The position numbers and the translations under genes are program-made. Under the pieces are notes generated by a model that saw nothing but the letters and a program-made list of their open reading frames with translations, made no database searches and was not told where the DNA came from. 33,756 nucleotides of DNA from IMG/VR virus record IMGVR_UViG_3300031841_002825, positions 1 through 33,756 of that record. The stretch is one strand, 5' to 3'. Positions 11,498 through 31,451 of this stretch are shown in pieces (the first letter of the stretch is position 1; each line of letters opens with the position of its first letter). This DNA comes from a virus.

Positions 11498-11505
11498 CAA
11501 AAATA
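11498..11505 (-). promoter_or_regulatory. Bacteroidota-type -7 promoter box (TATTTTTG)
   Basis: Minus-strand TATTTTTG fits TAnnTTTG. It lies 23 bases before the ATG of the first internal virion gene, in a 36-base intergenic gap. It differs from the six TATATTTGC copies elsewhere in the two n positions and lacks the trailing C. It would start the cargo-holin-secreted protein unit. I see no clear -33 element. Confidence 0.5.
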
Positions 11506-11510
11506 CTAAA

Positions 11511-12809
11511 TTATTTTTTAGTGCTTGATTTTCCGCCATGATCATACTCTGTGTACTCAAACTCCACCTGCATAGATGAAATTTCGAAGTCTGTGTTGCC
11601 AAGAATAACAAATGCGTCTGCAAAAGATCCGTGAGGATCTGCACCATTTATAACCCCTGGTGTCATAGCAAACAAGTATTCTCTACCCTTAGCAACAAAT
11701 TGTTGAATGTCATTTGACCCTGGGTCCCATGTAAATTGAAAGGAGGGGTATACACTCCCAAATGCAGGTGCGCCTGGCGTTCTTTCAAAGTATACGTGAG
11801 GACTTCCTGTGGTAGTATTTGCAGCTATAAGCAAGAATTTACCCTTTTTAAAAGAGTTTGTTGCGTCAGAATATGGATCCCCAAAAGACAAGTAGGTTGA
11901 ATAACTTTCGCCTTCATTAAAGTTGCTGGCTTCTGCAAAATTTGTTTGATATCGAGCACTTACGGGCTCATATGGTCCAATCCTTACATATGGGACGGCT
12001 GACATGGTGTTATTTTCATTGACCCTGCCACTAAAAAATTTAGTGTACTCACCAGCTTGTCCTCCAAAAATGCTAGAGGGCAAAGGATTATTTGACGCGA
12101 AGGACTCGATTTCAAAAGCATACAGCTTTTGGTTGTTAAGGACTGGCGCTGCCTCAAATCCATCAGCGTCTACGATCAGCCCATTTATAACTAAGTTGTC
12201 TTGTGGTTGTGGATCATTAGAATCTAATTCAGGTGTCAAATGAGTCCATATATTATCCCCATCCAAATAAGCAAAGTGCAGGTACACATTCTTTATTTTC
12301 CCTATTGCCTTGATGTTTGTCCCAGACATATAGAAATCTTTCCCAATTTCCCCATAAACAGAGTTGCCTCTACGCGCGAGCGGTGATAAATTGTGTAGGC
12401 CTTCGGAGGCGGAATTTAGGTTGTTATTGTTGCTGACAATAAATGCGCTTGCACCCAAAGAAAGACCAGTCACCTCAGAAGATTTGTTTAGTCCAGAAAT
12501 CGAGAATGACTTAAACAGCTTATTAGATGACGTCGTATTTGAGGCAGAAGAAGCAAATGACTTTGCAGTAAACCCATTAAAACTTACAGCCAAGGCGCTT
12601 GGCAATGAATGCTCGGATGAATTATAGAATGAGTTGAATCCATCAGAAGAATCATTATGTCTATAAATTGGCTTTCTACCATCACCCTCAGTCTTTTGGT
12701 TGGGGGAGGTAAAAAACAATTTGTCAAGATGCATCATGCATGACGGCGCATAAGAGTACCGAGTCTTCCAGTATTCAGACTTGTTGTCAAAAGCTATTGT
12801 CTGTTTCAT
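11511..12809 (-). CDS. Tail hub/stabilisation-like protein, separate downstream partner of the nozzle protein
   Basis: 432 residues. The N-terminus MKQTIAFDNKSEYWKTRYSY, then APSCMMHLDKLFFTS, then IYRHNDSSDGFNSFYNSS (48-65), resembles a module I know from tail hub/stabilisation proteins of Bacteroidota podoviruses (pattern: F-D-x-K-x-W-x-S/T-x-Y-S-x-x-P, a Phe-rich strand, then Y-x-HN followed by FYG/FYN). In many relatives this module is the C-terminal part of one long polypeptide. Here it is a separate gene whose ATG overlaps the stop of the 1781-residue nozzle gene as ATGA. The remainder is beta-rich, with a probable jelly-roll-like C-terminus (EISSMQVEFEYTEYD). It should be a distal tail component. 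Family assignment is from remembered patterns. Confidence 0.68.
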   Translation of the reverse strand: MKQTIAFDNKSEYWKTRYSYAPSCMMHLDKLFFTSPNQKTEGDGRKPIYRHNDSSDGFNSFYNSSEHSLPSALAVSFNGFTAKSFASSASNTTSSNKLFKSFSISGLNKSSEVTGLSLGASAFIVSNNNNLNSASEGLHNLSPLARRGNSVYGEIGKDFYMSGTNIKAIGKIKNVYLHFAYLDGDNIWTHLTPELDSNDPQPQDNLVINGLIVDADGFEAAPVLNNQKLYAFEIESFASNNPLPSSIFGGQAGEYTKFFSGRVNENNTMSAVPYVRIGPYEPVSARYQTNFAEASNFNEGESYSTYLSFGDPYSDATNSFKKGKFLLIAANTTTGSPHVYFERTPGAPAFGSVYPSFQFTWDPGSNDIQQFVAKGREYLFAMTPGVINGADPHGSFADAFVILGNTDFEISSMQVEFEYTEYDHGGKSSTKK

Positions 12810-15800
12810 TTTACAGTTTCTTCTGCTGAAATAAATCCTCCACTGCTAGACACCGAGAGACCTAAGTATGATCTCGTGGGATCTTCCTCCGATGGTTCGA
12901 CATCAGTTATCCCCGAATCTACGGTAGAATCATCTCTCGTCGGTGTTCCATCATCAGGTTCTGTTGGGCCGCCATCTGTTCCGCCATTTCCTCCAGTCCC
13001 CCCATCATCCGTTGGATCTGCTGGCCCGCCATCGCCATTTCCTCCAGTCCCCTCATCATCCGTTGGCTCTTCTGGCCCTTCATCGCCAGTTCCCTCATCA
13101 GTTCCTTCGTCACCAGTATCTTCGGTTTCGTCCGTTCCTTCTGGTGCGACGGGACCTTCATCTCCCCCTGGCTGTTCAGTGTCTACATCACCATCAATAA
13201 TTGTCACGCCTTCAAAGACGCCAGTAAGTGGGTCATATTCAAACTCTTCCCCAGTGAAGTCCTCCATATTAAACACGGAGATAATATACTCATCGCGGAG
13301 CGGATCATACCCAGATACAACACGAACCTTTCCTTCCCCATTGCGCTCATCTTTCAAGGCCTGGGCAAAGATGTTATTGAAGTATGCCTTCATGTTGTTA
13401 TTAGATACAACTGCCACCCCCTTGCTTCTAGTCAGCTTATATACCTCCCTCTTTCCCTTGTGCGCAAAATAGATGGCCTCTCCAGCTCGAATAACGCCTT
13501 CTGGGTTTCCACCAGAACCATAGTCTCCTCCATAAAACTTTTGTGTACCAAGAATCTTTTGAGACGCAATCAAAGACTGTTCGCCAGTAGCCGTTGATAT
13601 AATGTTTCTGCTAACTGGAATTGAACTAGCCTTGTTTTCTTGAATGACAACGACATTGTCATAATCATTCAGAATGTAGTTGATAGACCCATATTCATTA
13701 GGTAAGTCCTTAAAGTTCAGGGTCGTTGCGTTAAACGTAGTATATCTATTGGCTTTTGAGGCGTAATTGTTTTTATCAGAGTATATTAAGGACGACCTTT
13801 TGTACAGGGGTTTTGATCCTGGGACAATAACCTTTGGCTTACCCCAATCCAGACCATTGCACCCAGGTATAAGGTCTGTAAATGCAAGCGTTTCAAGTAT
13901 CACGTTTTTAAATGATGGAAGAGATTCTATATCTCCATCCACACTTTCAGTTGAAAGAAATTGGAATCCTTCGCCATCGACGTAATCTGGGAAGTTAACT
14001 GCAACTCTTCGCCACCATACATCACCGTCCTTTAAAGTGATAGACGTTTGGGAATGCACTGGATTTCCCTGGCTGTTTCTAGCAACATCGTACTTTTCCC
14101 CTATTTCATAATAAAATCTATCATCAAATTCTTGCACCTTCTTTGGCGAGAATATTTCAACAACAGTTCTATTATTCCAGAAATTTGACCCAACATCATA
14201 CGTTGGGTTATTGTCATCATCTAATGCCTGCATTGAGGCAACAACCTCACCATATGTAAATCCACTGGCATCAGGATTGTTTTTTAGCACCAAAAATTGA
14301 CCCGTTTTGTAGGTTGGGGCTTGACCGCCATAGTTAAGGTCACCAACTTGTTGTTCGCCTTCACCTTGAAAGAGAGGATTCTCTAATGGATTGCTAGATA
14401 GGTTTACGACATCAACAATATCAAAAACATAGTTTTTTGGATACACCACCTCTTCACCATCCGTGTCTGTATAGTACAGAATCCTAAGCCTATCTCCTTG
14501 CTTATGCGTGTATAAATCTTTGCCGCCGTCTTTGTTTACCGCGCCAAAAGCATGACTATATGATATGTTGTTAACACCCTGAAGGTGGGCCAGCGAAACA
14601 TATATCAGTGACTCATCGTTACTTAATGGGTCTGTCTCAACAACACTCTGAACAAATGCTGGGCCAGTTGTATACTGAACAAAGTCACCAATTGTACTAT
14701 TCGGACTATACACAATTTGATACTGAGTAGCCCATGACGGTGGGTCATTGTTTAGAGACAACAACACATCTACCCTACCCTTTTCATCAAAACCACGTTC
14801 AGCGTTACTATATCCATTTACGTATACATTGCCTAGATAATTTACATTTCCAGAGCGACCCCTTTGGTCATAATAGACAATTCCAAAATCATGATTGGCA
14901 TTTGTCTTAAACGATCTTGGATAGTATAAGCCACTTATACCAGTTGCAAATGTCGTGACGCTAACAACCTCTACCCACGTATTGAGAGTAGAGGGAACGT
15001 CATGATTGTAGGTCAAAAGAGTGCTGTCACCATCGGCATTAGCGTCGGGCATATAATGATACCCAAGAGATTCGTATGGAGATGCAATACTTGTGTTTCT
15101 AAAACTCTTTAAAAAACCTCTTGACTTTACCCAGCCAATAAGATCTTCAGAGTCGCTCAAATCCAAAAGCGGTGAGCTTTGACCAGCACTGGTTCCTGCG
15201 TATTGAGCTGGATTTTGCAGTTCATCAAGAGAGGCTGTTGGCAACTGGTTTTTGTCAACAATATATCTTCTCCTAAGATCACCCTTAAATAGAACATATG
15301 GGGATATGCTGCCCCAAGAAACTTCTTGACCAATTCCAGTTTTATTGTTTTCAAACCCTGGCCCCCCTTCCCCATCGACCAAAGAAAACAAAGCATTTTG
15401 ATTTACAAGATCAGAATTTAATCCAGCAGTTGATGAGATGTAATTAAATACTTCGTCACTTGTGTTTATCAACTTAAGGTTTTCACTAATGTTGCCAGAT
15501 GGAGCAGACAAATAACCAAGACAATAGCTCCCCCTTCCGTTGTTAAATCCAGCGGCAAGATTTGCAAGCTTCCAATCTAGAATTGGGTCAATAACGTTGT
15601 TTTCATATGGATTGATATATCCACTATTAACAGTATTCTGTTGACGAATAATGTATTGATACTGAGTGTATCCAAAGAAATACATATTCCTTGGGTCATT
15701 TTGCATCCATCCAATAGAATTTTCACTAACATCGTTGTCAGGAATCCAGGACTGGTTTTCTGGAAGATAGATAGGGAGTGATTCGATATCTGTTGATGCA

Positions 15801-18151
15801 ATTGTCTCCCTAGAATATGTAATCCAATAGGCTATGTTGCCATTAATTAAATTAATTGGAAGTATACCAACCCATAATTTGTTCTCTCCATTGTAAACTT
15901 CTTCAGGAAGAGCATCGGTATTGGCTCTAGCAGAGATGAAGGTTCCAACGGGAACATACGGGATGCACGTATACACCTCTACATTACCCAAGGCCTTTAG
16001 GTCAAGGCCAATATAGCAGTTTACATCATTTGGCTCTGTATCGTATGCGTCCTCCATATAGGTGAAGGCCTTCAGGCCAAAAGAAACGTTTGCCTTATTA
16101 ACAATAAAGTATCCAACAGGCTCTTCAGTATGATCGGATGGAGATCCTTCATTTGACTGAACACCAACAATCAAATGCTTTCTATAATCGTTGCCAGATT
16201 GAGAATAGATTTTAGACCCATCACTAAGGTCCAGGTCTATATCGTATGAAGCAATACTCAGCGTCTGTTGAACCTCTGTGGCAAAATCCTGACCACTGAT
16301 TTGAGGCATATCAACTTCCCCAGTAAGGAAATGATATATAGTATCTTTAATAAAGTTCTTTGGATCGCTCGTATCAAAATTTGTTTTAAACGTAACAGAG
16401 AACCTCAATGGCTCAGATTTGATGATGAACGGATTCGCAGCAGACGTACCATAAGAAACAGCAGTGCTGCCAGAAATGGACGGATTATTTATAATTGATC
16501 CCTCTGGGCTAGGATTTGGAAACCACCCCTGGTAATTCCATAGGTTTCGAGCTTCATCATTTATCCCATCAATAAACTTAACCCCCTTATTTTGACCAAA
16601 ATATTTTTTTCCGCTACGATATAGATCTGAATCTGAGTCAGTTTCAGGAGCTTGCGATCCATCGTCATTGATGCGATCTAAAATCTCATCATTGTTGTTT
16701 TCTCCATTGAAAAATCCAGCCTCCCTACTTCCGTGATATGAATTTTGCTGGTTGTAGAAATGAAAGTGGTTATCTGGGATAACCGTAAAGTCTACCTGTA
16801 TAATGGTTTCCGACTCCAAGTAATCGCTTGGAACAGTAGACAAATCAATCTTATAGCCAGCAACCCTATTAGTTCCAAGTTTCTTGTAGATTTCTTGAGA
16901 TTCAAGGTCTTCATCATTCGGGCGGGCCCTGAATTGATTGATTACTGGAACAACACTTATTTGGATCAGGTCACCTTGTCTTGGTGTTCCATTGTAAACA
17001 GCCGTTATATCTGCAGAAACATCCACTTCTGGATATTGCTCTACATAATTACCATAAATAAGTCTGTCAGACGATACTGTCTGAGCCTGTGCAATCCTTG
17101 GTAGATTGCTGAACGGCATATTTGATTCTTCTTCTGTGATTGGAATAAGAATCCTATCGTTATAGAAATTATAGGTAATATCACCAAGTGTGTCGTAATC
17201 TGGTGAGTCAGTTTGCAGATCTTTTATCTCGTCAATCAATCTCCACAAACCCAAATTTCCGTATCGAACAAGAATTTTAATCTCAGAAACCTCACGTGAC
17301 CCACGAGGAATTGAAAGAACACATCTATTTTCAAGGTTTACACTAGAAGTAACAACCCCCAATGCAAGGTATGCTGGTGGCACAGCAATCTTAGAGTAGG
17401 TTGACAATGCGCTTTCTACGTTGTCTCTGTATACGTACTGATATGCAAACTGCAATCCAGGTATACTCGTAAAGTTCGAAGAAGACCTAGATGGATCAAA
17501 GTCAAAACCAAAAGTAATAGGTGATAACGGAGTCCTAGGACATGCCGTAATCATATCCAAAATGTCGATGTCATTATAGTCATTGAGGCTGGCCTCCATA
17601 ACGTCATAGACATTAAGCTTTCTTGGTTCGTTCTTGTTGTCGGTGAAGTACAAGAGTACATTGCCGCCGTCTTCAGATTCATTTGCATTTCTGCGTTGAC
17701 CAACATAAACAACGTCAGCTTTTACAAACCCGTCACTTGGAAAATTGAATTTAGGAGACGTATATACCTTAACGTATGACTCTCTTACGTTGTTGCCAGG
17801 CAAGATAGCGTCCTGATCCCAAGCATATACGCCCATCTGGTCCGAATCGTTGGACCATGCGAAAAAATAAATGACATTAAACACCTCGTCGGCCACAGAT
17901 CCAATGACTCGAAACAAGCTATTGTCACTGATAAGGCTGTCAATGCCCGTAATTTCCTCAATACTTGCGTTTGATGGAATGGGTTTGACCACACCAGAGT
18001 CGCCTGAAAAGTTGTTTTGCTGAGCGTTAGTTGTCCCTAAGTTGTAGCTTTCTTTAAGCGCAATATTCAGCGCATCAATCATATCGGTTGATGGCCGATA
18101 CTTTGAATCTACATCAGAGTTTAACCTCTGCGGAATTACTTTATCAATCAT
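12806..18151 (-). CDS. Giant nozzle/tail tubular protein B-like structural protein
   Basis: 1781 residues. It begins MIDKVIPQRLNSDVDSKYRP (residue 1). A propeller-like N-terminal region follows: FNVIYFFAW (91-99), LLYFTDNKNEPRKLNVYDV (166-184), then PGLQFAYQYVYRDNVESALS (231-250) with TYSKIAVPP and SEIKILVRYGNLGLW. This block is what I know from nozzle/tail tubular B and tail stabilisation proteins of crAss-like and marine Bacteroidota podoviruses. The folded part ends near VRVVSGYDPLRDEYIISVFN, the usual end of the propeller part. After it comes an acidic Gly/Asp/Thr/Glu/Pro low-complexity tail at about 1657-1740 with two 17-residue repeats, then a short Ser-rich end. The protein starts at a TAATG junction with the connector gene and is coupled by ATGA to the hub-like gene. 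It probably forms the tail tube extension below the connector. Confidence 0.8.
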   Translation of the reverse strand: MIDKVIPQRLNSDVDSKYRPSTDMIDALNIALKESYNLGTTNAQQNNFSGDSGVVKPIPSNASIEEITGIDSLISDNSLFRVIGSVADEVFNVIYFFAWSNDSDQMGVYAWDQDAILPGNNVRESYVKVYTSPKFNFPSDGFVKADVVYVGQRRNANESEDGGNVLLYFTDNKNEPRKLNVYDVMEASLNDYNDIDILDMITACPRTPLSPITFGFDFDPSRSSSNFTSIPGLQFAYQYVYRDNVESALSTYSKIAVPPAYLALGVVTSSVNLENRCVLSIPRGSREVSEIKILVRYGNLGLWRLIDEIKDLQTDSPDYDTLGDITYNFYNDRILIPITEEESNMPFSNLPRIAQAQTVSSDRLIYGNYVEQYPEVDVSADITAVYNGTPRQGDLIQISVVPVINQFRARPNDEDLESQEIYKKLGTNRVAGYKIDLSTVPSDYLESETIIQVDFTVIPDNHFHFYNQQNSYHGSREAGFFNGENNNDEILDRINDDGSQAPETDSDSDLYRSGKKYFGQNKGVKFIDGINDEARNLWNYQGWFPNPSPEGSIINNPSISGSTAVSYGTSAANPFIIKSEPLRFSVTFKTNFDTSDPKNFIKDTIYHFLTGEVDMPQISGQDFATEVQQTLSIASYDIDLDLSDGSKIYSQSGNDYRKHLIVGVQSNEGSPSDHTEEPVGYFIVNKANVSFGLKAFTYMEDAYDTEPNDVNCYIGLDLKALGNVEVYTCIPYVPVGTFISARANTDALPEEVYNGENKLWVGILPINLINGNIAYWITYSRETIASTDIESLPIYLPENQSWIPDNDVSENSIGWMQNDPRNMYFFGYTQYQYIIRQQNTVNSGYINPYENNVIDPILDWKLANLAAGFNNGRGSYCLGYLSAPSGNISENLKLINTSDEVFNYISSTAGLNSDLVNQNALFSLVDGEGGPGFENNKTGIGQEVSWGSISPYVLFKGDLRRRYIVDKNQLPTASLDELQNPAQYAGTSAGQSSPLLDLSDSEDLIGWVKSRGFLKSFRNTSIASPYESLGYHYMPDANADGDSTLLTYNHDVPSTLNTWVEVVSVTTFATGISGLYYPRSFKTNANHDFGIVYYDQRGRSGNVNYLGNVYVNGYSNAERGFDEKGRVDVLLSLNNDPPSWATQYQIVYSPNSTIGDFVQYTTGPAFVQSVVETDPLSNDESLIYVSLAHLQGVNNISYSHAFGAVNKDGGKDLYTHKQGDRLRILYYTDTDGEEVVYPKNYVFDIVDVVNLSSNPLENPLFQGEGEQQVGDLNYGGQAPTYKTGQFLVLKNNPDASGFTYGEVVASMQALDDDNNPTYDVGSNFWNNRTVVEIFSPKKVQEFDDRFYYEIGEKYDVARNSQGNPVHSQTSITLKDGDVWWRRVAVNFPDYVDGEGFQFLSTESVDGDIESLPSFKNVILETLAFTDLIPGCNGLDWGKPKVIVPGSKPLYKRSSLIYSDKNNYASKANRYTTFNATTLNFKDLPNEYGSINYILNDYDNVVVIQENKASSIPVSRNIISTATGEQSLIASQKILGTQKFYGGDYGSGGNPEGVIRAGEAIYFAHKGKREVYKLTRSKGVAVVSNNNMKAYFNNIFAQALKDERNGEGKVRVVSGYDPLRDEYIISVFNMEDFTGEEFEYDPLTGVFEGVTIIDGDVDTEQPGGDEGPVAPEGTDETEDTGDEGTDEGTGDEGPEEPTDDEGTGGNGDGGPADPTDDGGTGGNGGTDGGPTEPDDGTPTRDDSTVDSGITDVEPSEEDPTRSYLGLSVSSSGGFISAEETVK
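12984..13085. repeat. Two tandem 51-bp units encoding an acidic Gly-rich linker
   Basis: Bases 12984-13034 and 13035-13085 are adjacent 51-bp units that match at about 46 of 51 positions when aligned by eye; a shorter degenerate copy follows to about 13109. They encode two 17-residue units, each with the core PTDD then GTGGNG, in the low-complexity tail of the nozzle-like protein. The unit is a multiple of three, so copy-number change would not break the frame. The whole compositional tract spans roughly 12930-13185. Confidence 0.85.
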
Positions 18152-19047
18152 TAATACTTAGGTGATTGCTTGAAATTCTTACGAATAGTCTTGAGCGCCT
18201 CCTCTTTGCTAAAGTTTGAAAGTCTTGCTTTGGCCTTTCTGCGCTCATTGTAATATTCAGAACGAGCTCTCATCTTTTCATTCGCTGGAATGGTAGACTT
18301 TCTCTCACACAGCTTGTAGTAGATATAGCATCTCAATGCCTCTTCAGCATACACGTGAATTACTGGGTTTGTAGAACGCGCCTCATCACAGATGTATTCA
18401 AGAACAATATCCGTTGTCTCAGAGCTTGTGTCTAATTCAATTCTGTTTTGATCAAGATTGATTCTATACTCGCCTGGAGCATATCCACCACCAGAACCGT
18501 ACAATCTCCCAAGGCCTCCCTGAAAAAGATAGTTTTCAAAAACATAAAAGTCAAGATCTCCACTGTCAGCTGTTGATGACGCAGTAGCCCCCTTGTCGTC
18601 TTGTCTGTTCTCTATTCTGTTCTGAGTAAGGTTAAGTGGACCCTGAGCACTGTCTGTCTTCCCAATAGTTCCGTCATCTTCTACTTTAATCTTTCTAGAG
18701 TAGTTGATGTTTTTGTTTTGATTGAAAACCCGAATGATGCCTTCAGAATCGACGATTCCAAGCTTTACAATATCTACATAATCATCTGGAAGGATGATAG
18801 TATTATTTGATTGTACAGGCCTTTTGATGGATCGCACACGGCTACTCACATCAAATCCAAGCTCACGAATGCCTCGAAGCGCAATGTTTCTAATAGCGGC
18901 ATCCGATGCATTACTTGCATAATCGTCTCCATCCATAGTGATCAAGTAGTCGTTGATCACCTGACGAAGAGAGACAAAATTCATTGTCTCACTGCTTGTC
19001 CCAGTGCTCGGCCTGGAACCTCTGTATACTACGTCTTCAAATGCCAT
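18151..19047 (-). CDS. Head-tail connector / tail tubular protein A-like (ring) protein
   Basis: 298 residues. The pattern SLRQVINDYLITMDGDDYAS (26-45), then NIALRGIRELGFDVSSRVRS, then NNTIILPDDYVDIVKLGIVD is what I know from small connector proteins of Bacteroidota and marine podoviruses. The LPDDYVD-x-VK segment resembles tail tubular A/adaptor proteins. The C-terminus is helical and basic (YYNERRKAKARLSNFSKEEA), as expected for a protein that packs against the portal. Overlaps of TAATG at both ends tie it to another connector-type gene upstream and the nozzle gene downstream, which is the expected assembly neighbourhood. Exact ring position cannot be told from sequence alone. Confidence 0.72.
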   Translation of the reverse strand: MAFEDVVYRGSRPSTGTSSETMNFVSLRQVINDYLITMDGDDYASNASDAAIRNIALRGIRELGFDVSSRVRSIKRPVQSNNTIILPDDYVDIVKLGIVDSEGIIRVFNQNKNINYSRKIKVEDDGTIGKTDSAQGPLNLTQNRIENRQDDKGATASSTADSGDLDFYVFENYLFQGGLGRLYGSGGGYAPGEYRINLDQNRIELDTSSETTDIVLEYICDEARSTNPVIHVYAEEALRCYIYYKLCERKSTIPANEKMRARSEYYNERRKAKARLSNFSKEEALKTIRKNFKQSPKY

Positions 19048-19829
19048 TATTCAGCTTTTTCTTCTGCTATAGCAAAGGTGGAAAGGTAGCTATCTCTCAA
19101 TCTAATACCGATCATCTTTGCTATCTCAATGATTAACTCGTTCTTATAGTGGTCGGGAAGCTCAAAATGCCTTGAGTTCAATACATCGGGTACAGTAATG
19201 TTGGCACCAGCTTGCATCTCAACGTAAACTGGCGTTGAACTTAAATCAATGGCCCCGTTAGATGCGTCAATAGACTTAGGCTGCCTGTAGTATTTAAGCA
19301 GAATTGAGTTCACCTCAAATGGAAATACTTCAATTTGATTGGTGATAATTGCTACAGGAAAATCAGATGTAGGCCCAGAAAGATTGCTGTTCAGCACCCT
19401 TTCGGCTGTTTCAGAATTATAGATAAGATCCAAATTCCTATCTGTATCTGTAGTTCTGATGCTAATAATCCTTGCCAAATCCTCTGGCTTTCTAAATACA
19501 CTAGCCTCCAAATCAGCAGGATTGATGTACTCACCCTGAGTTTCCTCGTCGTAATCTTCGGGCTGAGGAACATCGTCACTCAAAGATCTGGTGGTAATAA
19601 AATACGACAGATCTTCTTCTACCATCTTATACAGGGACTTGTCTCGCGATGCATCAATGCCCGCTTTTCTGGCCCTGTTTGCTGCAAGCAGCTCCTGGAA
19701 CATCTCATTAAAAACGTTCTGCTGAGCGATACCAGCAAAGGTGCTAAAGACTTCTGGGGTAACGAATCCTCGTTGATCCTTATTGCAAAGGTCTCTAACA
19801 GCGTTATATACATCAACAATATTTACCAT
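19047..19829 (-). CDS. Putative neck/ring (connector) protein
   Basis: 260 residues when started at the ATG at 19827-19829 (MVNIVDVYNAVRDLCNKDQR). The open frame continues upstream to 19898, but that extension would run through a terminator hairpin and the TATATTTGC promoter box, so I reject it. The sequence has a helical N-terminus (FAGIAQQNVFNEMFQELLAA), a beta-rich middle (PVAIITNQIEVFPFEVNSIL) and a C-terminal helix FELPDHYKNELIIEIAKMIG. The last motif is familiar from structural proteins next to tail tubular A-like genes in Bacteroidota phages. It starts the connector-nozzle-hub transcription unit. The promoter box ends only three bases before the ATG, so the mRNA may be leaderless. Confidence 0.72.
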   Translation of the reverse strand: MVNIVDVYNAVRDLCNKDQRGFVTPEVFSTFAGIAQQNVFNEMFQELLAANRARKAGIDASRDKSLYKMVEEDLSYFITTRSLSDDVPQPEDYDEETQGEYINPADLEASVFRKPEDLARIISIRTTDTDRNLDLIYNSETAERVLNSNLSGPTSDFPVAIITNQIEVFPFEVNSILLKYYRQPKSIDASNGAIDLSSTPVYVEMQAGANITVPDVLNSRHFELPDHYKNELIIEIAKMIGIRLRDSYLSTFAIAEEKAE

Positions 19830-19832: not shown

Positions 19833-19841
19833 GCAAATATA
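19833..19841 (-). promoter_or_regulatory. Bacteroidota-type -7 promoter box (TATATTTGC)
   Basis: Minus-strand TATATTTGC, three bases upstream of the ATG at 19829 and directly after the U-tract of the terminator at 19848-19877. It would drive the connector-nozzle-hub unit. With initiation usually a few bases after the -7 box, the transcript should begin at or next to the start codon. Confidence 0.65.
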
Positions 19842-19847
19842 AGAAAT

Positions 19848-19877
19848 AAAAAAGCCGCTTTTTAGGGCGGCTCTTTT
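19848..19877 (-). terminator. Intrinsic terminator after the AT-hook-like gene
   Basis: AGCCGC (19853-19858) pairs with GCGGCT (19867-19872) around an 8-base loop. After one mismatch, four A-T pairs extend the stem to 19848-19877. On the minus strand the stem runs into TTTTTTATTTCTTA. It lies between the gene ending at 19895 and the promoter at 19833-19841. Confidence 0.8.
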
Positions 19878-19894
19878 AATAAAAAAAATCAATA

Positions 19895-20775: not shown

Positions 20776-22065
20776 TTAAGATTTATAGAATTTAAACAAG
20801 TCTTCGGCAAGTAGTCTGGCTTTACCCACACCAATGTCCTGTGGTATAACTCCAAAACGACCAATATACCCTTTAAATCCAATTCCGCCAGGAAGAGATA
20901 GAATGTCTTTAACTGTGCCAAGACGTTCGATTAACAGGTTTCCATCTGTTCTGGCAGAAGAGTCCTTGGTGAGTTTGTCGTTTAGAGCTTTTGTTTTTGC
21001 TGGGATAAAACCAATAATATCGCCATCTCTATTATGCATAATCATATTGAAGTTCTTGTCTCTTCTAATGACAAAAACATCCACGTCATAATCATCAACA
21101 ACCTGATTAGCAACTTGAGATTTAGGCCACGTATATGATACTGTTCCGTTTTTGTTGTCGTTTGTTTGGGTCGTTGCTACCGCACCCTCTATCCCACTAT
21201 GTCTCACTGAAAACGAATTTCTCTTGTCAGTAACACTTACAACAGTAAGATCAGTGCCAGCAGGATAGCTCCCACCAAACCCAACTGTTTCTCCAGCTGC
21301 ATCACCGTAAACACACATAGGCGGTACTACCTGACCAAGAACAACATATATTGTATAGTCGTCCGCAACAGTTAAAGAAGGCACAGTAAAGTACTCTCCA
21401 TTTCCAGTTAGGTTTGCTGACCTCTGAGAGATGTTGCTGCTTGAAGATGAGGTTTCACAAGACGGCGTGCCAGTAATGGTAGAGATGCTGTAATCAGATC
21501 CCCCAGTGCCAGCATTAGACCAAGACGTTATTGTGGCTCCATCTGCAAATCCGCTAAGGCCTTCATGATTAAAATCAACAATTGGAAGGTTGCCCCTAAA
21601 GTTAATCTCTGCAATGGTGTCCTGATACTGTTCCTCTTCTGTGCCAAGTGAGATCCTTCCTGTCTCCATATTAATAGGAGATGTAGAAACCTTAGCGATG
21701 AGATTAGTGGAGCTGCTAACATCAGAGAATCTCATATTTGACGTGTTATTTACAGCGTCAAACCTCATAATAAATTTGTTGTTGTTGGCGGAGATAAAGT
21801 TTAAGATGTCTACAATGAGATCAACCTCATGTCCATCCGATGAGGCTACAGATATATTTACTTTCTCGATAGCCTCCCCGATATTCCCAAAGGACTCCTC
21901 ATAAATACCAGCGTCATCAAAGGTCATGTTGACAAATCCTTTGGTGGCCGTGATGTTACAGAGTTTGTCTGAGGGTATTGATATGGCACTGATGCCAAGA
22001 CCGCTATCAGAGTCCCTTGTGCTCGCTGACGATACGTCAGATATATTGAACAGGAAGAATTTCAT
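20776..22065 (-). CDS. Virion protein with C-terminal concanavalin A-like (LamG-type) domain
   Basis: 429 residues. The N-terminal part (1-150) is beta-rich and includes GLGISAISIPSDKLCNITAT and FIMRFDAVNNTSNM; I do not recognise it. From about 160, LPIVDFNHEGLSGFADGATI, then TSWSNAGTGGSDYS, then FTVPSLTVADDYTIYVVLGQ, and the end GYIGRFGVIPQDIG followed by a terminal helix, follow the layout of concanavalin/LamG-type lectin-like domains. Such domains bind carbohydrate in many phage and secreted bacterial proteins. It has its own TATATTTGC box 19 bases upstream and precedes the AT-hook-like gene. A glycan-binding head or tail accessory is plausible; the ligand is unknown. Confidence 0.68.
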   Translation of the reverse strand: MKFFLFNISDVSSASTRDSDSGLGISAISIPSDKLCNITATKGFVNMTFDDAGIYEESFGNIGEAIEKVNISVASSDGHEVDLIVDILNFISANNNKFIMRFDAVNNTSNMRFSDVSSSTNLIAKVSTSPINMETGRISLGTEEEQYQDTIAEINFRGNLPIVDFNHEGLSGFADGATITSWSNAGTGGSDYSISTITGTPSCETSSSSSNISQRSANLTGNGEYFTVPSLTVADDYTIYVVLGQVVPPMCVYGDAAGETVGFGGSYPAGTDLTVVSVTDKRNSFSVRHSGIEGAVATTQTNDNKNGTVSYTWPKSQVANQVVDDYDVDVFVIRRDKNFNMIMHNRDGDIIGFIPAKTKALNDKLTKDSSARTDGNLLIERLGTVKDILSLPGGIGFKGYIGRFGVIPQDIGVGKARLLAEDLFKFYKS

Positions 22066-22084: not shown

Positions 22085-22093
22085 GCAAATATA
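22085..22093 (-). promoter_or_regulatory. Bacteroidota-type -7 promoter box (TATATTTGC)
   Basis: Minus-strand TATATTTGC, 19 bases before the ATG at 22065 of the concanavalin-like gene. It overlaps no coding sequence: the 42-residue gene upstream ends at 22095. No -33 TTG is evident. Confidence 0.65.
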
Positions 22094-22094
22094 C

Positions 22095-22223
22095 TTATTT
22101 GTTCTTAAAATATTCGACCTGTCTAAGACGTTTTAATGCTTCTTTTCTAGATGAGTATGGACCACCTAGTCTTTTGCCAGATTTAGATATTACAACATAC
22201 TTATCTTTTTTCTTGACAATCAT
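22095..22223 (-). CDS. Small basic conserved phage protein (42 aa)
   Basis: Translated by hand from the ATG at 22221-22223: it begins MIVKKKDKYVVISKSGKRLG, continues GPYSSRKEALKRLRQVEY and ends FKNK. A longer frame exists upstream to 22502, but it lies antisense-frame within the previous structural gene and crosses a terminator, so this short start is preferred. The motif GKRLGGPYSSRKEA-x-KRLRQVEYF is one I recall from small proteins of many marine phages and cyanophages. Function is unknown; the basic charge would allow nucleic acid binding. It is alone in its unit, between the strong terminator with promoter upstream and another promoter downstream. The promoter box ends three bases before the ATG, predicting a leaderless mRNA. 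Confidence 0.82.
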   Translation of the reverse strand: MIVKKKDKYVVISKSGKRLGGPYSSRKEALKRLRQVEYFKNK

Positions 22224-22226: not shown

Positions 22227-22235
22227 GCAAATATA
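22227..22235 (-). promoter_or_regulatory. Bacteroidota-type -7 promoter box (TATATTTGC)
   Basis: Minus-strand TATATTTGC three bases before the ATG at 22223, immediately downstream of the TTCG-loop terminator. It would drive the 42-residue gene and perhaps read on. Confidence 0.65.
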
Positions 22236-22239: not shown

Positions 22240-22267
22240 AAACAAAAAGGGGGCCGAAGCCCCCTTT
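22240..22267 (-). terminator. Strong intrinsic terminator with TTCG tetraloop
   Basis: On the minus strand AAAGGGGGC, loop TTCG, GCCCCCTTT: a perfect 9-bp stem (22246-22254 with 22259-22267) followed by TTGTTTT. It lies 20 bases after the stop of the gene ending at 22288, so it closes the capsid transcription unit. Confidence 0.92.
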
Positions 22268-22287
22268 CTCGAAACAAGTAAATGATA

Positions 22288-25708: not shown

Positions 25709-26122
25709 TTAGTTCTGATTAAAAGGTCCTGCACTAGAGCTATCTAAACCAAACACACCAAACTCAATCATCTGATCCACCTTAGTTCCATAGACCCTAT
25801 ATCCCTTATCCACCGCAACTGGAATAAAACAAAATTCAGAGCCCCCAACCTTTGCCACAAGACCATCACTATCTGTGTCGTTGTAGATATAGATGTAGTT
25901 TTCTTTCTCTAGCTCAAGGTTTTTTACAAACAGATATGCAGATTCAGTTCTGTCGTTTGCAGTATAAACTTCTAGGGCATTAGCGTTTACAGCAGTTTTA
26001 ACAACTTTCGCTCTGCTCAAAATGCCAGAATCAGCACTTGCAGAAAACTCTGCAGATACGCTAACAGGGCTTGCCAGAACGGAAGCACTATTCAATGTTA
26101 ATGTTGCCCTAAGTGTAGCCAT
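25709..26122 (-). CDS. Small structural-type protein, possible paralogue of the upstream gene
   Basis: 137 residues, beginning MATLRATLTLNSASVLASPV. It contains LEVYTANDRTESAYLFVKNL, an IYIYNDTDSDGL stretch, and FCFIPVAVDKGYRVYG near the C-terminus. The order of features (MAT-x-x-AT-x-TL-x-SA start, an internal YTA, then V[RK]N, then an aromatic or hydrophobic closing strand) parallels the gene just upstream, with which it shares a TAATG junction. I read them as diverged copies of one beta-sandwich-like virion protein. Function is unknown. Confidence 0.7.
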   Translation of the reverse strand: MATLRATLTLNSASVLASPVSVSAEFSASADSGILSRAKVVKTAVNANALEVYTANDRTESAYLFVKNLELEKENYIYIYNDTDSDGLVAKVGGSEFCFIPVAVDKGYRVYGTKVDQMIEFGVFGLDSSSAGPFNQN

Positions 26123-26550
26123 TATGAGTGATAAAGAGCCATGTATTCGATCGTCATAGACGTAGCAACACTTGGCGTAATAGTAATGTCCGTATCAGTA
26201 TCTGCACTGTATGGAAGTAACATCCAGTCACCAGCATAAAGTCTGCCGATTTCAAGAGCACCAGCATCTCCAGTGCCATTACCAAACTTAACGGTAAAGT
26301 ATTCTGAAGCAACAGTACTTGGATTTCTAACGTAAACTTTATGAGCTGGGTCAGAGGCGGCGCCAAAATCTGTTTCGTCAAACAAAACAACTTCAGAAGT
26401 TGCAGTGTAAATTTTTCTGTTTACACCAGTCGTTTGATCCAAACCAGTAACCGTTCCTCCCTTAGTGAGGGTCGCCGTCGTAGACAGTGAGAGAGCGTCA
26501 CCAGTGAGGTCAGCGCTCGATAATGTAATTGTTGCAGTAGTTGTAGCCAT
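26122..26550 (-). CDS. Small structural-type beta-rich virion protein
   Basis: 142 residues, beginning MATTTATITLSSADLTGDAL. It has VVLFDETDFGAASDPAHKVY, then YFTVKFGNGTGDAGALEIGR, LYAGDWMLLPYSADTDTDIT and a terminal MTIEYMALYHS. The AHKVYVRN, GRLYAGDW and IEYM elements are ones I recall from small virion-associated proteins of marine phages. It is the first gene after a TATATTTGC box (17 bases from the ATG) and starts the transcription unit that continues through scaffold and major capsid genes. A capsid or neck accessory role is inferred. Confidence 0.72.
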   Translation of the reverse strand: MATTTATITLSSADLTGDALSLSTTATLTKGGTVTGLDQTTGVNRKIYTATSEVVLFDETDFGAASDPAHKVYVRNPSTVASEYFTVKFGNGTGDAGALEIGRLYAGDWMLLPYSADTDTDITITPSVATSMTIEYMALYHS

Positions 26551-26567: not shown

Positions 26568-26576
26568 GCAAATATA
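26568..26576 (-). promoter_or_regulatory. Bacteroidota-type -7 promoter box (TATATTTGC)
   Basis: Minus-strand TATATTTGC 17 bases before the ATG at 26550. It sits in a 30-base gap and would drive the small structural, scaffold and capsid genes down to the terminator at 22240-22267. Confidence 0.65.
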
Positions 26577-26580
26577 CTTA

Positions 26581-26805
26581 TTATTTCTTTTTCTTTTTGC
26601 CAGACCGAATCTTAGCTGCCTCTCTTTTTCCAAAAGCAGATTTAACTCTTGCCATAGCCCAAGCATGCTGAGACACTTTTGGCCTGTTTCCAGAGCTCAT
26701 ATATGCGGCAAGGCCTCTTCTGTAGACCTCCTTTTGAGCTGGGGTCAAACTAGAAAAGCCTTTACCTTTTTTCTTGGATTTTCCTCCTTTCTTAAGTACA
26801 ATCAT
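26581..26805 (-). CDS. Small Lys/Arg-rich phage protein with SGNRPKVSQHAWAMARV motif
   Basis: 74 residues, very basic at both ends: MIVLKKGGKSKKKGKGFSSL at the start and KIRSGKKKKK at the end. The centre reads LTPAQKEVYRRGLAAYMSSG followed by NRPKVSQHAWAMARVKSAF. I recall the SG-x-RP-x-x-x-x-x-AWA-x-x-RV core from short proteins of marine phages and cyanophages; their role is not established as far as I know. The start overlaps the upstream gene's stop as ATGA. The charge suggests binding to packaged DNA or RNA. Confidence 0.78.
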   Translation of the reverse strand: MIVLKKGGKSKKKGKGFSSLTPAQKEVYRRGLAAYMSSGNRPKVSQHAWAMARVKSAFGKREAAKIRSGKKKKK

Positions 26806-26996
26806 ACCTTGTCTCTTTGTGCCATAAGTTTTTTTAGTCTTGCTTCTACGGCAGGCGGAAATCCTTTCTTTTTTCTCTTAGCCTTGGTTCCTCTATACTT
26901 CTTGTAAATCTCAGAAATCTGTTGCATAAGTTTTTTTCTTTTTGCAACATTCGAGCTACCACGAGTGTATTTCGGATTAAATTTCATTTTACCCAT
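26802..26996 (-). CDS. Small Lys/Arg-rich phage protein (64 aa)
   Basis: 64 residues: MGKMKFNPKYTRGSSNVAKR, then helical KKLMQQISEIYKKYRGTKAK and FPPAVEARLKKLMAQRDKV. Roughly a third of residues are Lys or Arg and it has no membrane segment. The ATG at 26994-26996 overlaps the previous stop; the Met at codon 4 (MKFNPKY) is an equally possible start. It is the middle gene of three basic miniproteins sharing one promoter. Function is unknown. Confidence 0.75.
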   Translation of the reverse strand: MGKMKFNPKYTRGSSNVAKRKKLMQQISEIYKKYRGTKAKRKKKGFPPAVEARLKKLMAQRDKV

Positions 26997-27174
26997 GACT
27001 CACAAGCTTAAATTTAGCTTGTTTTACAGCATTAGGATGCGGTTTATAATCTCCCTTCATGAGGAAATATCTACCGCGTTCCTCCATCCAGTGGAATCCT
27101 TTAGGGGGGTCAACCGCTTGAGTTTTTGAGGAAATTTTAATCTTCCCTCCCTTGTTATACTTTACAGCATTCAT
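26989..27174 (-). CDS. Small basic phage protein (61 aa) with GFHWMEERGRYFLMK motif
   Basis: 61 residues starting at the ATG at 27172-27174 (MNAVKYNKGGKIKISSKTQA). The frame is open up to 27282, but that would overlap the fibre gene's end and the promoter box, so the shorter start is preferred. It contains DPPKGFHWMEERGRYFLMKG and ends with HPNAVKQAKFKLVSHG. I recall similar KGGKI, PKG-[FY]-HWM and RY-[FY]-LMK short proteins from marine phages, without known function. It opens a three-gene set of basic miniproteins. The TATATTTGC box ends 13 bases upstream of the ATG. Confidence 0.78.
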   Translation of the reverse strand: MNAVKYNKGGKIKISSKTQAVDPPKGFHWMEERGRYFLMKGDYKPHPNAVKQAKFKLVSHG

Positions 27175-27187
27175 GATCTTTAGTAAT

Positions 27188-27196
27188 GCAAATATA
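27188..27196 (-). promoter_or_regulatory. Bacteroidota-type -7 promoter box (TATATTTGC)
   Basis: Minus-strand TATATTTGC in the 37-base gap after the fibre gene, 13 bases before the ATG at 27174. It would drive the three small basic genes. Confidence 0.65.
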
Positions 27197-27211
27197 TGAA
27201 AGACGTAAGTA

Positions 27212-28546
27212 TTAAACCACCCTCCATTCTTTCGATGGTGAGAAGAATACTTCGTTCTGAGAGGCGTTGACGACATACCCACAGACTCTTACGTAATCGC
27301 CAGTACCTGAAGGTGCTGTAGCAGTAAGCTCACCAGCTGTGTTAGACAAGTAAAGAACATCACCAGCAGAAGCCCCAGAGAATCCAGCATTAGAAGAGAG
27401 TTTGATGACACCTTCGATAAGCATTGAATTTGCAGAAGCTTCATCTGTAGCCACTGCAATCATGCCGATAGAGGCGCCAGCTACGTCAGCATCTCCTTGT
27501 ACCCAAGCGCTGCTGCTAGCGACGTACACTACGCCAGCCGTCACAGTACCAGTAGCAAACTGAGTAACGATCTTAGATCCAGCACCATACTCGCCAGCAG
27601 ATGGTGATGTTTGAGATCTACCGTTTATCTCTATAGCGTCTGCTCTAAAGTTACCTTCTATCTTACATCCACCCACAACATGAAGAGTTTCAGTCGGGGT
27701 TACTGTCCCAATACCGACTCTACTGTTAGCGATGTCAATGTAAGCCACGCTTGTAGCCGTAGCCACGGAGCTGGTGTTCCCTGCCCAGATATTACCAGTA
27801 GGAATGTTCGGGACATCGTTGGTTCTTCCGATACAAGACACCTGAAAACCCTGCAGAATTGTACTATTAGTCTTCAGCACAATACCTACGTTCTGAATCA
27901 AGTAAGTCCCTGTAGGTTTTGTTTGTGACAAACCACCACCAGAGTTTGAAACATATAAGATGTCTCCTTCAGACAATCCAGTAAAGCCAGATACGTTGGT
28001 GTTAAAAACACCCGACATAATGGCGTATCCGTCTTTGGTGTCTCCAGTTGTCGTAAGCGTAGTCTCTGCTATACCAATAGCTGGCATCTTTGCAGGATCT
28101 GAGGCATCAGCAATACCCACAAGTATGCGCTCACTACCACCAACCTCACCCCTAGAATAAACAGGAGTGCCTGCTGGTATCGTAGCCCCTTCGTCGTTCC
28201 TTATTGTAATTCGGGTAGATCTGACATGGTCGAACGTTAATGCACCAGCGCCATCGGTAACCAAAACCTGATCATCTTCACCGTCAGCAGCAGGGAACGA
28301 ATACGCACTCCACTTCGTGTCATAGTCTGTGGCGCTGTTCTTCTGAAGAAACTGGTTCTCTGCTCCTCCAGAAGCCACCCCAGAACCAGTATCGCCTTTA
28401 GGCCCTTTTTCAGTAACAATAAAACTTGGTGCGGATGGAACTGCGACAGATACGGTAGTAACTGTCTGAGATAGACTTACAGTATTACCGCCCGAAACAG
28501 AAACATCTACCGTGTTGCCTTGGGATGTCGATACACTTACACTCAT
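27212..28546 (-). CDS. Fibre/spike-like virion protein with collagen-like motif and duplicated domain
   Basis: 444 residues. The N-terminus is a Ser/Val beta repeat (VSVSTSQGNTVDVSVSGGNT). A short collagen-type EKGPKGDTG follows at 47-54. Two related domains come next. The first, about 112-240, has ATIPAGTPVYSRGEVGG, ADASDPAKMPAIGIAET and GLSEGDILYVSNSGGGLS. The second, about 328-444, has GVVYVASSSAWVQGDADVAG and GASAGDVLYLSNTAGELT. Between them SRVGIGTVTPTETLHVVG (275-292) is the GIGT-x-x-P-x-E-x-LHV motif common in tail fibres, often before a chaperone domain that is absent here. It should be a trimeric host-contact or head-fibre protein. It starts in an ATGA overlap with the preceding accessory gene, in the portal operon rather than the tail operon, so a head or neck fibre is also possible. 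Confidence 0.78.
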   Translation of the reverse strand: MSVSVSTSQGNTVDVSVSGGNTVSLSQTVTTVSVAVPSAPSFIVTEKGPKGDTGSGVASGGAENQFLQKNSATDYDTKWSAYSFPAADGEDDQVLVTDGAGALTFDHVRSTRITIRNDEGATIPAGTPVYSRGEVGGSERILVGIADASDPAKMPAIGIAETTLTTTGDTKDGYAIMSGVFNTNVSGFTGLSEGDILYVSNSGGGLSQTKPTGTYLIQNVGIVLKTNSTILQGFQVSCIGRTNDVPNIPTGNIWAGNTSSVATATSVAYIDIANSRVGIGTVTPTETLHVVGGCKIEGNFRADAIEINGRSQTSPSAGEYGAGSKIVTQFATGTVTAGVVYVASSSAWVQGDADVAGASIGMIAVATDEASANSMLIEGVIKLSSNAGFSGASAGDVLYLSNTAGELTATAPSGTGDYVRVCGYVVNASQNEVFFSPSKEWRVV

Positions 28547-29004
28547 CTTTTTGCACCGCTAGTAATCTTAGTAACGTCTTCATTTATTACAAAAGCTCCA
28601 CGCAAAACGGTTGTGTGTGTGTCAACTCCAGATGTTGTAGGTAAAATATATTGAAGATCATATACATGACGACCCGCAGGTACATTGCGCATAGTAGCAG
28701 CGGTAGCTTTAATAGTGACATTTCCGCTATCATCGACAACAAAAGGCTCAAAATAAGCTCCTCCAGGAATCTCTGCAGTACCAAGGTCTACACCCTTAAG
28801 ACCCTTTTCTGTAGTAGCAATAAGAGGGCTTGTAGATCTTTTAGCCGTAGGCCACACCTGCATAACAAAAGAGTAATTAGATGTTGCAAGCGTCAGTCCA
28901 GTGCCAGTGGAATCCTTGAGAGTTAGAGTAAGCTCAAATGTGTCTCCTTGACGGCACGTAATATCCAGAACTTCTGATACGTCTAAGTTTACTTTATTGG
29001 CCAT
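28543..29004 (-). CDS. Ig/BppU-like accessory virion protein
   Basis: 153 residues. CRQGDTFELTLTLKDSTGTG (17-36), then YSFVMQVWPTAKRST, a Gly-rich turn, and NVPAGRHVYDLQYIL (107-121) ending VLRGAFVINEDVTKITSGAK follow the pattern [RQ]GDTF-x-L-x-x-x-L-D, M-x-VR, AG-x-YVYDLQ, and L-x-G-x-F-x-V-x-x-D-V-T. I know this from small Ig-like/BppU-N-like phage proteins attached to baseplates or fibres. It overlaps the portal end by 11 bases and is coupled by ATGA to the fibre-like gene, which suggests it links that fibre to the virion. Confidence 0.7.
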   Translation of the reverse strand: MANKVNLDVSEVLDITCRQGDTFELTLTLKDSTGTGLTLATSNYSFVMQVWPTAKRSTSPLIATTEKGLKGVDLGTAEIPGGAYFEPFVVDDSGNVTIKATAATMRNVPAGRHVYDLQYILPTTSGVDTHTTVLRGAFVINEDVTKITSGAKR

Positions 29005-31423
29005 TTTGCATATTCATTAAAACATTTCTCATAGGATTGCCATCATCTCCTTGTAACTCTGTTCTCTGCCCTTTTCTTTGAGAGATAAGCTTTGACTGCT
29101 CTACAGCCTGTTTTTTAACCCTTTCATCCTTTCGATCCTCTTTAAGAACCTCAAGCTTTTCTTTAAAGTCCTCTTCAGTTTCTTTAAATCCAAGAGTAGC
29201 CTTAGCACGAATGGTTTCAATCTCCTTATTGAACTCGTGTCTCATTGCCGCCATCTGTGCCTCAAGTTGAGCTTTAAGCTGCATTTTCTGAGCTTCAATT
29301 TGTGCTTCAGCTTGCATTTTTTGACCCTCAATTTGAAGCTGTATGGCTTGAGATTGCTGCGCCATTTGAGCCTGCATCTGCTGTTGCTGTGCAGCCATTC
29401 TCTGTGCTTGTTCAAACTTCTTTTTTCTTCTAACAATTAGAAGTCTTTCTGCTTGATTTATATCTTTAAGCTCTCTAATGGCCATGGCATCCTCAAGATC
29501 AATCTCCTTTTGTCCAAGAGAGATTTGTATTGCTTGCTCCAAGTATGCTTGGTCTTTATCATCCATATCCTTTTGAACCTGGACACCAAAATTGTACATA
29601 GGAAGTCTAGAGAAGCTAGTAAGAACACTCATATTGGTTTGACCAATAGCATTTCTATAAACCTCCATAATAACAGAATCTTCTGGCAAAATCTGCAAAC
29701 ACTTGACGATATCATTACAAACATTCTTGTAAAGAATCATCGAAGCATTTGTAATGTCATATGTTGCATTATTAGATGCGGCAATGGCTTGCTCACGCAC
29801 GCCCACCAAGGCTTCTGACTTTGGAGTGCTGGCATCTACAACTTCATTAATACCTGTAGTATCACGTATCATTCTGAGGTAGTGGTTATACAAACCAATA
29901 AGCTCATTAATGTTTCTAATACTATTTCCAATCTCACGGATTGGAGGGTTTTGAAAGCCTCCCTCTGGGTTTTTACTTCTATAGTAAAAAACACCAGTTT
30001 GTTCATAAATGTCATGCAGGTCCAATGGCTGCAATTCACCACCCTTTCCAAGCTGCACATTTTCCAACCCTTCAATGTCAATAATCAAGCCATCTGGTTT
30101 AGCCTTAGCGATAGCTTGTTGAATTTTAAGGTGAGTTAACTGAAGCATGTCTGCAAACCCGACACAACTTGATACCATTGATTTTGGCATCATGTCAGTA
30201 AGATTTGTTGCTACAACAGAATAAGACATTCTTGCCTTACTAATGTCGTAGATGTTTTTGGGCACATTGTGCATTCTGCCATACCCAAATAGATAATCAG
30301 TGCCAAGGATGAAATAACCCTTATACACATTTACGATCTCCATTTTATATGGCTTGCGCTCAAAGACACTACCTGCTTTTTCTTTATAGTCAAATCCTTC
30401 GTAAAAGAAGTTTCTATTCCCAAATCTATTTTCCTTCTCCTCAAAGTACATGCAGTCTGTCGACAAAAACTCAAATTCCAAAACATCAACAGAGTACTCA
30501 TCGTATTCATAAATGTTTTTTCCTATGGTGCTGTCATACGCCTGACCATTTGCGCTTCGCCCAGAAACCTGTTTAACGATTTTTTGAAAATCTTCTTCTT
30601 CAAGTTCGCCACTAGCAATTCTTTTTAGCTCCTGGATCGGCATGGTTCTAATGTGCCCAGCATAAGTAATATCCTCAAAGCTTGGGTCATTGGTTTCGCT
30701 ATGAATAAAATCCTTTGGATCTACATAGTGAGTCTTGATACCGTAGTTTGGGTCATTTGATCTTTTAACTACAGCCATTCCATTAGTAGCCAGATCATTT
30801 ACGCATCTTCTAAAGATGTTGTCGTCAAAACTATTCCACGACAATGTCATATCTGTTGCCACTTGAGCAGCAATCTCAGCATCACTTTTGACATTCTCAC
30901 CAATAAAAATTTCAGCTTCAGCTTCATTGTCTGGAATCATCTCTGGGTCCATGCCAATTGTAGCCCCAGTCTTCTCCTTAAATGCCATAAGCTGTTTCTT
31001 GAGAGCTACTTGTATTTCAATCCTTTTTTTATCCCTATTCTTTTCAGAAGAAGACAATGGGTCTACAGCCTCAAGGTTCGGATATAAATTCCTACCAAGG
31101 ATTTTATTTACTACAATTCTGACAAACTTTGGAAGAATTGGAACTGGAGTAAAATCAAGATTCATCAAACTTCCATCACCAGAATTTGGGTCAAGATTGT
31201 TTAAGAGTCTTTTATAAATAGTAGTATCCTGTACGCCATTTGCGTATTCTTTGTTCCTTTTAAATAGATTATACCGTTTTGAGAACAAAGAAGAACTGTC
31301 GGTTCTCTTGCCCCACTGAGACTCAATAGCCTTAGCATATTTTAATCCATACGCTCTGCTCTCTTTTTCTTCCTGAGGAGCAAGCGGGTCTGGAAAATTT
31401 TTTTTTCCGCTATATTGTTTCAT
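28994..31423 (-). CDS. Portal protein
   Basis: 809 residues. The N-terminal part (20-120) contains RYNLFKRNKEYANGVQDTTI and LDFTPVPILPKFVRIVVNKI, followed by wing and stem-like regions including NDLATNGMAVVKRSNDPNYG and IRNINELIGLYNHYLRMIRD with TTGINEVVDASTPKSEAL. The last motif (IGLYNHYL, then TG-[IV]-NE) is characteristic of portal proteins. From about 665 to 780 is a long Gln/Ala/Met-rich coiled coil (starting FEQAQRMAAQQQQMQAQM), as seen in crAss-like and related large portals. It should form the dodecameric vertex ring through which DNA is packaged. It follows the terminase gene by 33 bases, with a TATATTTGC box in that gap, and overlaps the next gene by 11 bases. Confidence 0.88.
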   Translation of the reverse strand: MKQYSGKKNFPDPLAPQEEKESRAYGLKYAKAIESQWGKRTDSSSLFSKRYNLFKRNKEYANGVQDTTIYKRLLNNLDPNSGDGSLMNLDFTPVPILPKFVRIVVNKILGRNLYPNLEAVDPLSSSEKNRDKKRIEIQVALKKQLMAFKEKTGATIGMDPEMIPDNEAEAEIFIGENVKSDAEIAAQVATDMTLSWNSFDDNIFRRCVNDLATNGMAVVKRSNDPNYGIKTHYVDPKDFIHSETNDPSFEDITYAGHIRTMPIQELKRIASGELEEEDFQKIVKQVSGRSANGQAYDSTIGKNIYEYDEYSVDVLEFEFLSTDCMYFEEKENRFGNRNFFYEGFDYKEKAGSVFERKPYKMEIVNVYKGYFILGTDYLFGYGRMHNVPKNIYDISKARMSYSVVATNLTDMMPKSMVSSCVGFADMLQLTHLKIQQAIAKAKPDGLIIDIEGLENVQLGKGGELQPLDLHDIYEQTGVFYYRSKNPEGGFQNPPIREIGNSIRNINELIGLYNHYLRMIRDTTGINEVVDASTPKSEALVGVREQAIAASNNATYDITNASMILYKNVCNDIVKCLQILPEDSVIMEVYRNAIGQTNMSVLTSFSRLPMYNFGVQVQKDMDDKDQAYLEQAIQISLGQKEIDLEDAMAIRELKDINQAERLLIVRRKKKFEQAQRMAAQQQQMQAQMAQQSQAIQLQIEGQKMQAEAQIEAQKMQLKAQLEAQMAAMRHEFNKEIETIRAKATLGFKETEEDFKEKLEVLKEDRKDERVKKQAVEQSKLISQRKGQRTELQGDDGNPMRNVLMNMQNGQ

Positions 31424-31442
31424 TTACAAGAGAGTATATGTT

Positions 31443-31451
31443 GCAAATATA
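31443..31451 (-). promoter_or_regulatory. Bacteroidota-type -7 promoter box (TATATTTGC)
   Basis: Minus-strand TATATTTGC in the gap between terminase and portal, 19 bases before the portal ATG. It would drive portal, accessory and fibre genes. Confidence 0.65.

Follow-up and report, generated by a model that had tools for sequence, protein, structure and literature searches.

Almost invariant -7 boxes that look like Bacteroidota sigma-A promoters precede structural-module genes in an uncultured phage family

The structural genes of the marine virus studied here are preceded by short boxes that look like a stripped-down, almost invariant form of the normal promoter of its presumed Bacteroidota hosts, kept across a large uncultured virus family. 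The window, as the whole analysed stretch is called below, is a 33,756-base virus contig whose products include a terminase, a portal, virion proteins and a holin, and the minus strand is the coding strand for every principal gene. Our preferred reading, which we consider likely, is that they are sigma-A-type late promoters of Bacteroidota which consist of the -7 element only and are probably read by the host sigma-A, the label "late" being taken from the gene content of the window (terminase, portal, virion proteins). In this explanation the near-invariant -7 element, TATATTTG followed by C or T, would suffice with no need of a -33 contact, and the RNA polymerase of the host, equipped with a factor of the sigma-A type, would bind the box and initiate at the A 12 nt past its first T, whereby the structural module would be split into several units, each separately started. 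The proposal of a preliminary description, that -7-type promoters lacking a -33 TTG start short transcription units of the structural module, agrees with the look of the sequence, and is extended below by a leaderless and a leadered class of sites, by boxes placed after terminators and by a separate bipartite -33/-7 promoter.

All six TATATTTGC boxes first noticed on the minus strand were found in place, with none on the plus strand, as was the variant TATTTTTG at 11498-11505(-); the seven sites fit the Bacteroidota -7 element TAnnTTTG (revised TAHHTTTG). Shuffled sequence is expected to contain 0.35 copies of TATATTTGC (maximum of 3 in 100 shuffles), and the 6/6 copies lie in short intergenic gaps before genes, always on the coding strand, as had been described. 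Gene calls were simple ORF calls in which start codons were corrected (the gene after the 19833 box to 19829, after 22227 to 22223 and after 27188 to 27174); the window gaps then sum to 378 bases, and the probability that 6/6 boxes fall there by chance is ~2e-12. A -7 box occupies 7/7 window gaps of at least 29 nt (six TATATTTGC, one TATTTTTG) and 0/5 of those of 27 nt or less. For the plain consensus TANNTTTG the window shows no excess (23 copies vs 27 expected), and therefore the enrichment is specific to TATATTTGC. Other scans of the window gave generic sigma-70 promoter matches no commoner than in shuffles, no match to Rfam or to tRNAs, and no excess over chance of the palindromic motif AGAGTATATACTCT, which is enriched in the gaps of another clade. 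The sites and genes are the following, from high to low coordinates:

31457..33571, minus strand: terminase large subunit, 704 aa (phrog_6681, E 2.9e-207)
31443..31451, minus strand: TATATTTGC box preceding the portal gene; predicted start 31439 (A), 16-nt leader, ATG 31423
28994..31423, minus strand: portal protein, 809 aa (phrog_6547, E 1.5e-191)
27188..27196, minus strand: TATATTTGC box; predicted start 27184 (A), 10-nt leader, ATG 27174
26989..27174, minus strand: small ORF, 61 aa, ATG start, first called from an upstream GTG (ORF call)
26568..26576, minus strand: TATATTTGC box; predicted start 26564 (A), 14-nt leader, ATG 26550
26122..26550, minus strand: ORF, 142 aa (ORF call; weak phrog_8610)
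22244..22269, minus strand: intrinsic terminator GGGGGC-TTCG-GCCCCC-TTTTT, directly upstream of the 22227 box; passes the strict-stem test
22227..22235, minus strand: TATATTTGC box; predicted start 22223 = A of ATG (leaderless)
22095-22223, minus strand: ORF, 42 aa, behind the 22227 box (start read from sequence)
22085..22093, minus strand: TATATTTGC box; predicted start 22081 (T; next base A), 16-nt leader, ATG 22065
20776..22065, minus strand: ORF, 429 aa, downstream of the 22085 box (ORF call)
19847..19878, minus strand: intrinsic terminator GCCGCCC...GCGGC-TTTTTT, directly upstream of the 19833 box (terminator scan)
19833..19841, minus strand: TATATTTGC box; predicted start 19829 = A of ATG (leaderless)
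19047..19829, minus strand: virion structural protein, 260 aa, N-terminus MVNIVDVYNAV (phrog_14543, E 3.7e-32)
11498..11505, minus strand: variant box TATTTTTG; predicted start 11493 (A), 19-nt leader, ATG 11474
10212..11474, minus strand: ORF, 420 aa, behind the variant box (ORF call)

With the terminase large subunit of the window (31457..33571) as query, 80 uncultured relatives were retrieved whose terminases are 80-98% identical to it. Their loci hold TATATTTGC 138 times in sense and 8 times in antisense, in 77/80 loci, and the reversed pattern used as control occurs only 1 and 3 times. In the gap between terminase and portal, TATATTTG was present in 91/91 scored in-family rows, which correspond to 85 distinct records given that six full-length records were also counted as loci, and in 0/3 outgroups. 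Ten family genomes (one partial) taken together with the window have 58 boxes in gaps in sense, 4 in gaps in antisense and 13 within genes in sense, the reversed pattern being found once in their gaps. An unbiased k-mer scan of gaps placed TATATTTG at the top in the clade of the window (19 vs 0.5) and also in a sigma-less group (32 vs 1.0), and in a third group (G020, G023) a different, AT-rich repeat ranks first. Between gaps and genes TATATTTG is enriched ~21-fold, and other TAnnTTTG forms up to about 6-fold. The base after TATATTTG is C or T in a near-invariant manner. Single sites can also be followed: one of like kind to the 26568..26576 box is seen in G001 (at 34006) and other relatives, and one similar to the 22085..22093 box in G001, G007 and G011. 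Moreover, TATTTTTG and not TATATTTG precedes the apparent G001 counterpart of the 420-aa ORF, and this variant form seems to have been kept between the window and G001. The open-access collection that was searched for literature holds no description of these boxes. A 9-mer so repeated and conserved in gaps might in principle be the operator of a phage regulator, which we regard as the least probable reading of all and reject, the box being asymmetric (it is not a palindrome), locked to the coding strand (138 vs 8) and identical to the host -7 consensus.

The geometry of the sites points to a single start base. The -7 element of F. johnsoniae has been given as T-12 A-11 T-8 T-7 T-6 G-5 (PMC6847099), from which +1 is expected 12 nt beyond the first T. 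The phage geometry also agrees with that of F. psychrophilum, whose -7 box spans -12 to -5 (PMC9723704). Many of the family loci are related, so that non-redundant counts are given. Among 73 non-redundant sites the distance from the first T to the ATG is 11-14 nt in 34 (exactly 12 in 28), 15-21 nt in 2 and 24-39 nt in 37, and 92% of the leadered sites have an A 12 nt past that T. The predicted start is accordingly the A at this position, and thus both classes indicate, in an indirect way and from sequence only, one start base: an ATG lies at or adjoining it in ~47% of the non-redundant sites, for which a leaderless mRNA is predicted, and most of the remaining sites have predicted leaders of ~12-27 nt. 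The window site whose predicted start base is a T (22081) speaks against the explanation. A role of the box in the mRNA itself, as a ribosome-binding or processing signal and not as a promoter, would agree with its position nearly always just upstream of a start codon. We consider it very improbable, since a ribosome site would hold one spacing to the AUG and the observed spacing is either 12-13 or spread over 24-39 nt, and moreover the box fits the host -7 element and many copies lie directly behind terminators.

Intrinsic terminators are indeed frequent beside the boxes, with a strict-stem terminator within 45 nt upstream of 17/71 boxes vs 7/4400 random positions. At the site upstream of the gene for the 260-aa virion protein, 10/10 genomes where it was found retain the hairpin, the T-run, the box and the start; the hairpin stems differ in sequence among these genomes, and the ATG lies at 12 or 13 nt in 8/10. 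At terminator-box sites the hairpin occupies the position expected for a -33 element. In the proposed mechanism, terminator, box and start codon would there follow each other within ~60 nt, and the mRNA would often start at the AUG itself.

How far these promoters depart from those of the bacteria was judged from three Bacteroidota genomes, of the family of a MAG with a 69% identical terminase, which may not be that of the phage's host. The MAG, UBA10340 (L214, DNHN01000326.1), includes a 13-kb contig from a related phage, which is a weak hint at the host. A similar scan of the three genomes placed an ATG at 12-14 nt in 21/130 cases, so that leaderless promoters would be a feature of the phylum which the phage family over-uses. 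A purely phage trait is ruled out, these ATGs being present in the compared Bacteroidota too, if less often. Published figures are 5.5% of leaderless mRNAs in F. psychrophilum and, for B. thetaiotaomicron, 3.7% with 5' UTRs shorter than 10 nt, vs the ~47% predicted for the phages. The phage boxes also differ in that they mostly fix the two free positions as TA (63/107 family gap boxes vs 12/130 in the compared genomes, which are not proven hosts) and restrict the following base to C or T. This strictness, far greater than in the compared Bacteroidota promoters, argues against the preferred explanation, as host sigma-A alone offers no obvious cause for it.

The absence of a -33 TTG at the expected distance, remarked on from the outset, is confirmed, as 9/73 non-redundant family sites have one vs 8.4 in shuffles. 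For the gap boxes of the ten family genomes and the window the figure is 3/63 vs 7.9 expected, and the family boxes thus lack the classical Bacteroides -33 TTG/TTTG element. A missing -33 is not odd in itself: F. johnsoniae promoters likewise have no clear -33 motif (PMC6847099), so the element does not define the flavobacterial promoter form. With respect to sigma-A promoters of the phylum (sigma-ABfr; -33 TTTG / -7 TAnnTTTG), the likeness thus comprises the -7 element, the predicted start 12 nt past the first T and, as in F. johnsoniae, no clear -33 (PMC6847099). Gap boxes other than TATATTTG have a TTG at -33 spacing in 13/34 sense cases vs 5.4 expected. Moreover, at least 9 family members carry one bipartite TTG-N20-TAACTTTG promoter each, mostly ~150-250 bp upstream of the TATATTTG box that comes first in the late module; beside the -7-only boxes, this makes two promoter classes in the family. 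Sites of this kind are at L028:5200, L039:2009, L054:3466, L085:131 and L010:2673, and also in G001, G011, G012 and G020.

As for the factor that reads the boxes, the preliminary description left two alternatives, strong -7-only host promoters or a phage-encoded factor, and suggested a search for a phage sigma factor or RNA polymerase. A search with PF04542, PF04545 and the G001 sigma protein revealed a full-length sigma-A homologue in five of the searched family records (G001, G011, G012, G020 and G023; e.g., L101:14145-15050), all of which hold a family-type terminase. The phage sigmas are 47-71% identical to one another, and a small tree does not unite, with support, the sigmas of one sigma-bearing group with those of the other. 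No sigma match was obtained in G002, G003 and G005-G008, and G004 gave a weak, sub-threshold match to region 4 alone. The portal of the window is 86-91% identical to those of G001, G011 and G012 and 65-68% to those of the other full-length family members, which places the window in the clade of the former, where 3/3 full-length members have the homologue; because of this identity to sigma-bearing phages, the missing half of the window phage probably carries a sigma gene as well. No PF00940 match indicative of a T7-type RNA polymerase appeared in 12 records, in a search run without positive control, and no sliding-clamp co-activator family is among the Pfam and PHROG matches listed for three genomes.

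A phage sigma is thus encoded in the clade of the window, but members without the gene carry the same boxes. One of them, G007 (59 kb, 7 gap boxes, no sigma match), is apparently complete, judged by its terminal repeat, and therefore the boxes cannot need this sigma family-wide; dependence on it was discarded, the boxes occurring alike with or without the gene. Because this apparently complete relative has no detectable sigma gene and the same boxes, the host RNA polymerase probably reads them, and strong -7-only host promoters fit best, although in the window's clade, with its sigma, a phage factor may contribute. The most serious rival is that of a phage-specific late promoter, in which a phage factor (in the window's clade the sigma-A paralogue, in the other members a small protein that escaped recognition) steers host RNA polymerase to -7-only boxes in the manner of T4 gp55. 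We hold it to be rather unlikely. It would account for a consensus that is short, strict, -33-less and concentrated in structural modules, for the distinct TTG-N20 promoter close to where the late module begins, and for the sigma homologues of the five records, with three of which the window groups; the sigma-less members and the exact fit of the box to the host -7 consensus do not favour it. Region 4.2 can be read both ways, since TRER is replaced by SSER or TAER in the sigmas of G001, G011 and G012, but G020 and G023 retain the arginine. The changed residue is the one we take to be equivalent to R584 of E. coli sigma-70, which helps to read the -35 element, and the change could weaken -33 reading in the window-clade sigmas. 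These proteins have regions 1.2, 2, 3 and 4, as in phage-encoded primary-type sigmas, and a conserved part starting MRQLKIT, as in the compared bacterial sigma-A, to which they are ~51-53% identical, with the -33-reading helix changed. Within the preferred explanation the factor would probably be the host's own sigma-A, and the phage paralogue may share or take over this role in the window's clade. A more speculative and still less likely scheme is that the paralogue lost -33 reading and its holoenzyme came to serve exclusively late promoters of the -7-only, largely leaderless kind, as a T4-like switch evolved independently from a Bacteroidota primary sigma, with the boxes of sigma-less relatives served by host sigma-A.

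T4 late promoters (TATAAATA, served by gp55, gp33 and gp45) are likewise a short, strict consensus with no upstream element before late genes (PMC1524935), and the family boxes, short, strict, of -10-only type and before late genes, resemble them in this respect. They differ in that the box sequence is the Bacteroidota -7 box, that homologues of gp55, gp33 and gp45 were not seen among the matches listed, and that a phage sigma is not present in all users of the box, sigma-less members using the same one. The named relatives of the window virus, namely Podoviridae sp. ctfjg026 (MW202828), the Flavobacterium elemo phages and Cellulophaga phi38:1 (Pervagoviridae/Elemovirus podoviruses in the last two cases), share a related terminase and portal and the order of the structural module. 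Their terminases, however, are 35-49% identical, and the three tested have no TATATTTG in the terminase-portal gap.

If these proposals are true, a 9-mer with a predictable start base would be the promoter rule of a widespread uncultured marine phage family, whose transcription units could be read straight from contigs. The two spacing classes predict unusually many leaderless mRNAs in Bacteroidota, where Shine-Dalgarno sites are lacking and leaderless messages are rare, and the re-tuning of a Bacteroidota primary sigma becomes testable through a phage sigma whose -33-reading helix is altered.

Two further observations concern the gaps of the relatives. A tRNA-Ile (anticodon TAT) ends ~7 bases before a leaderless-type box in L017 (989-1071), L036, L050, L055, L075 and L014, with a tRNA-Arg (TCT) further downstream. 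AT-rich inverted repeats, possibly operators or terminators, are found in early-module gaps (G011:2263, 5280, 6165 and 57996; G020:9482 and 11649; G023:14880, 16087 and 20907), and they vary in sequence from clade to clade.
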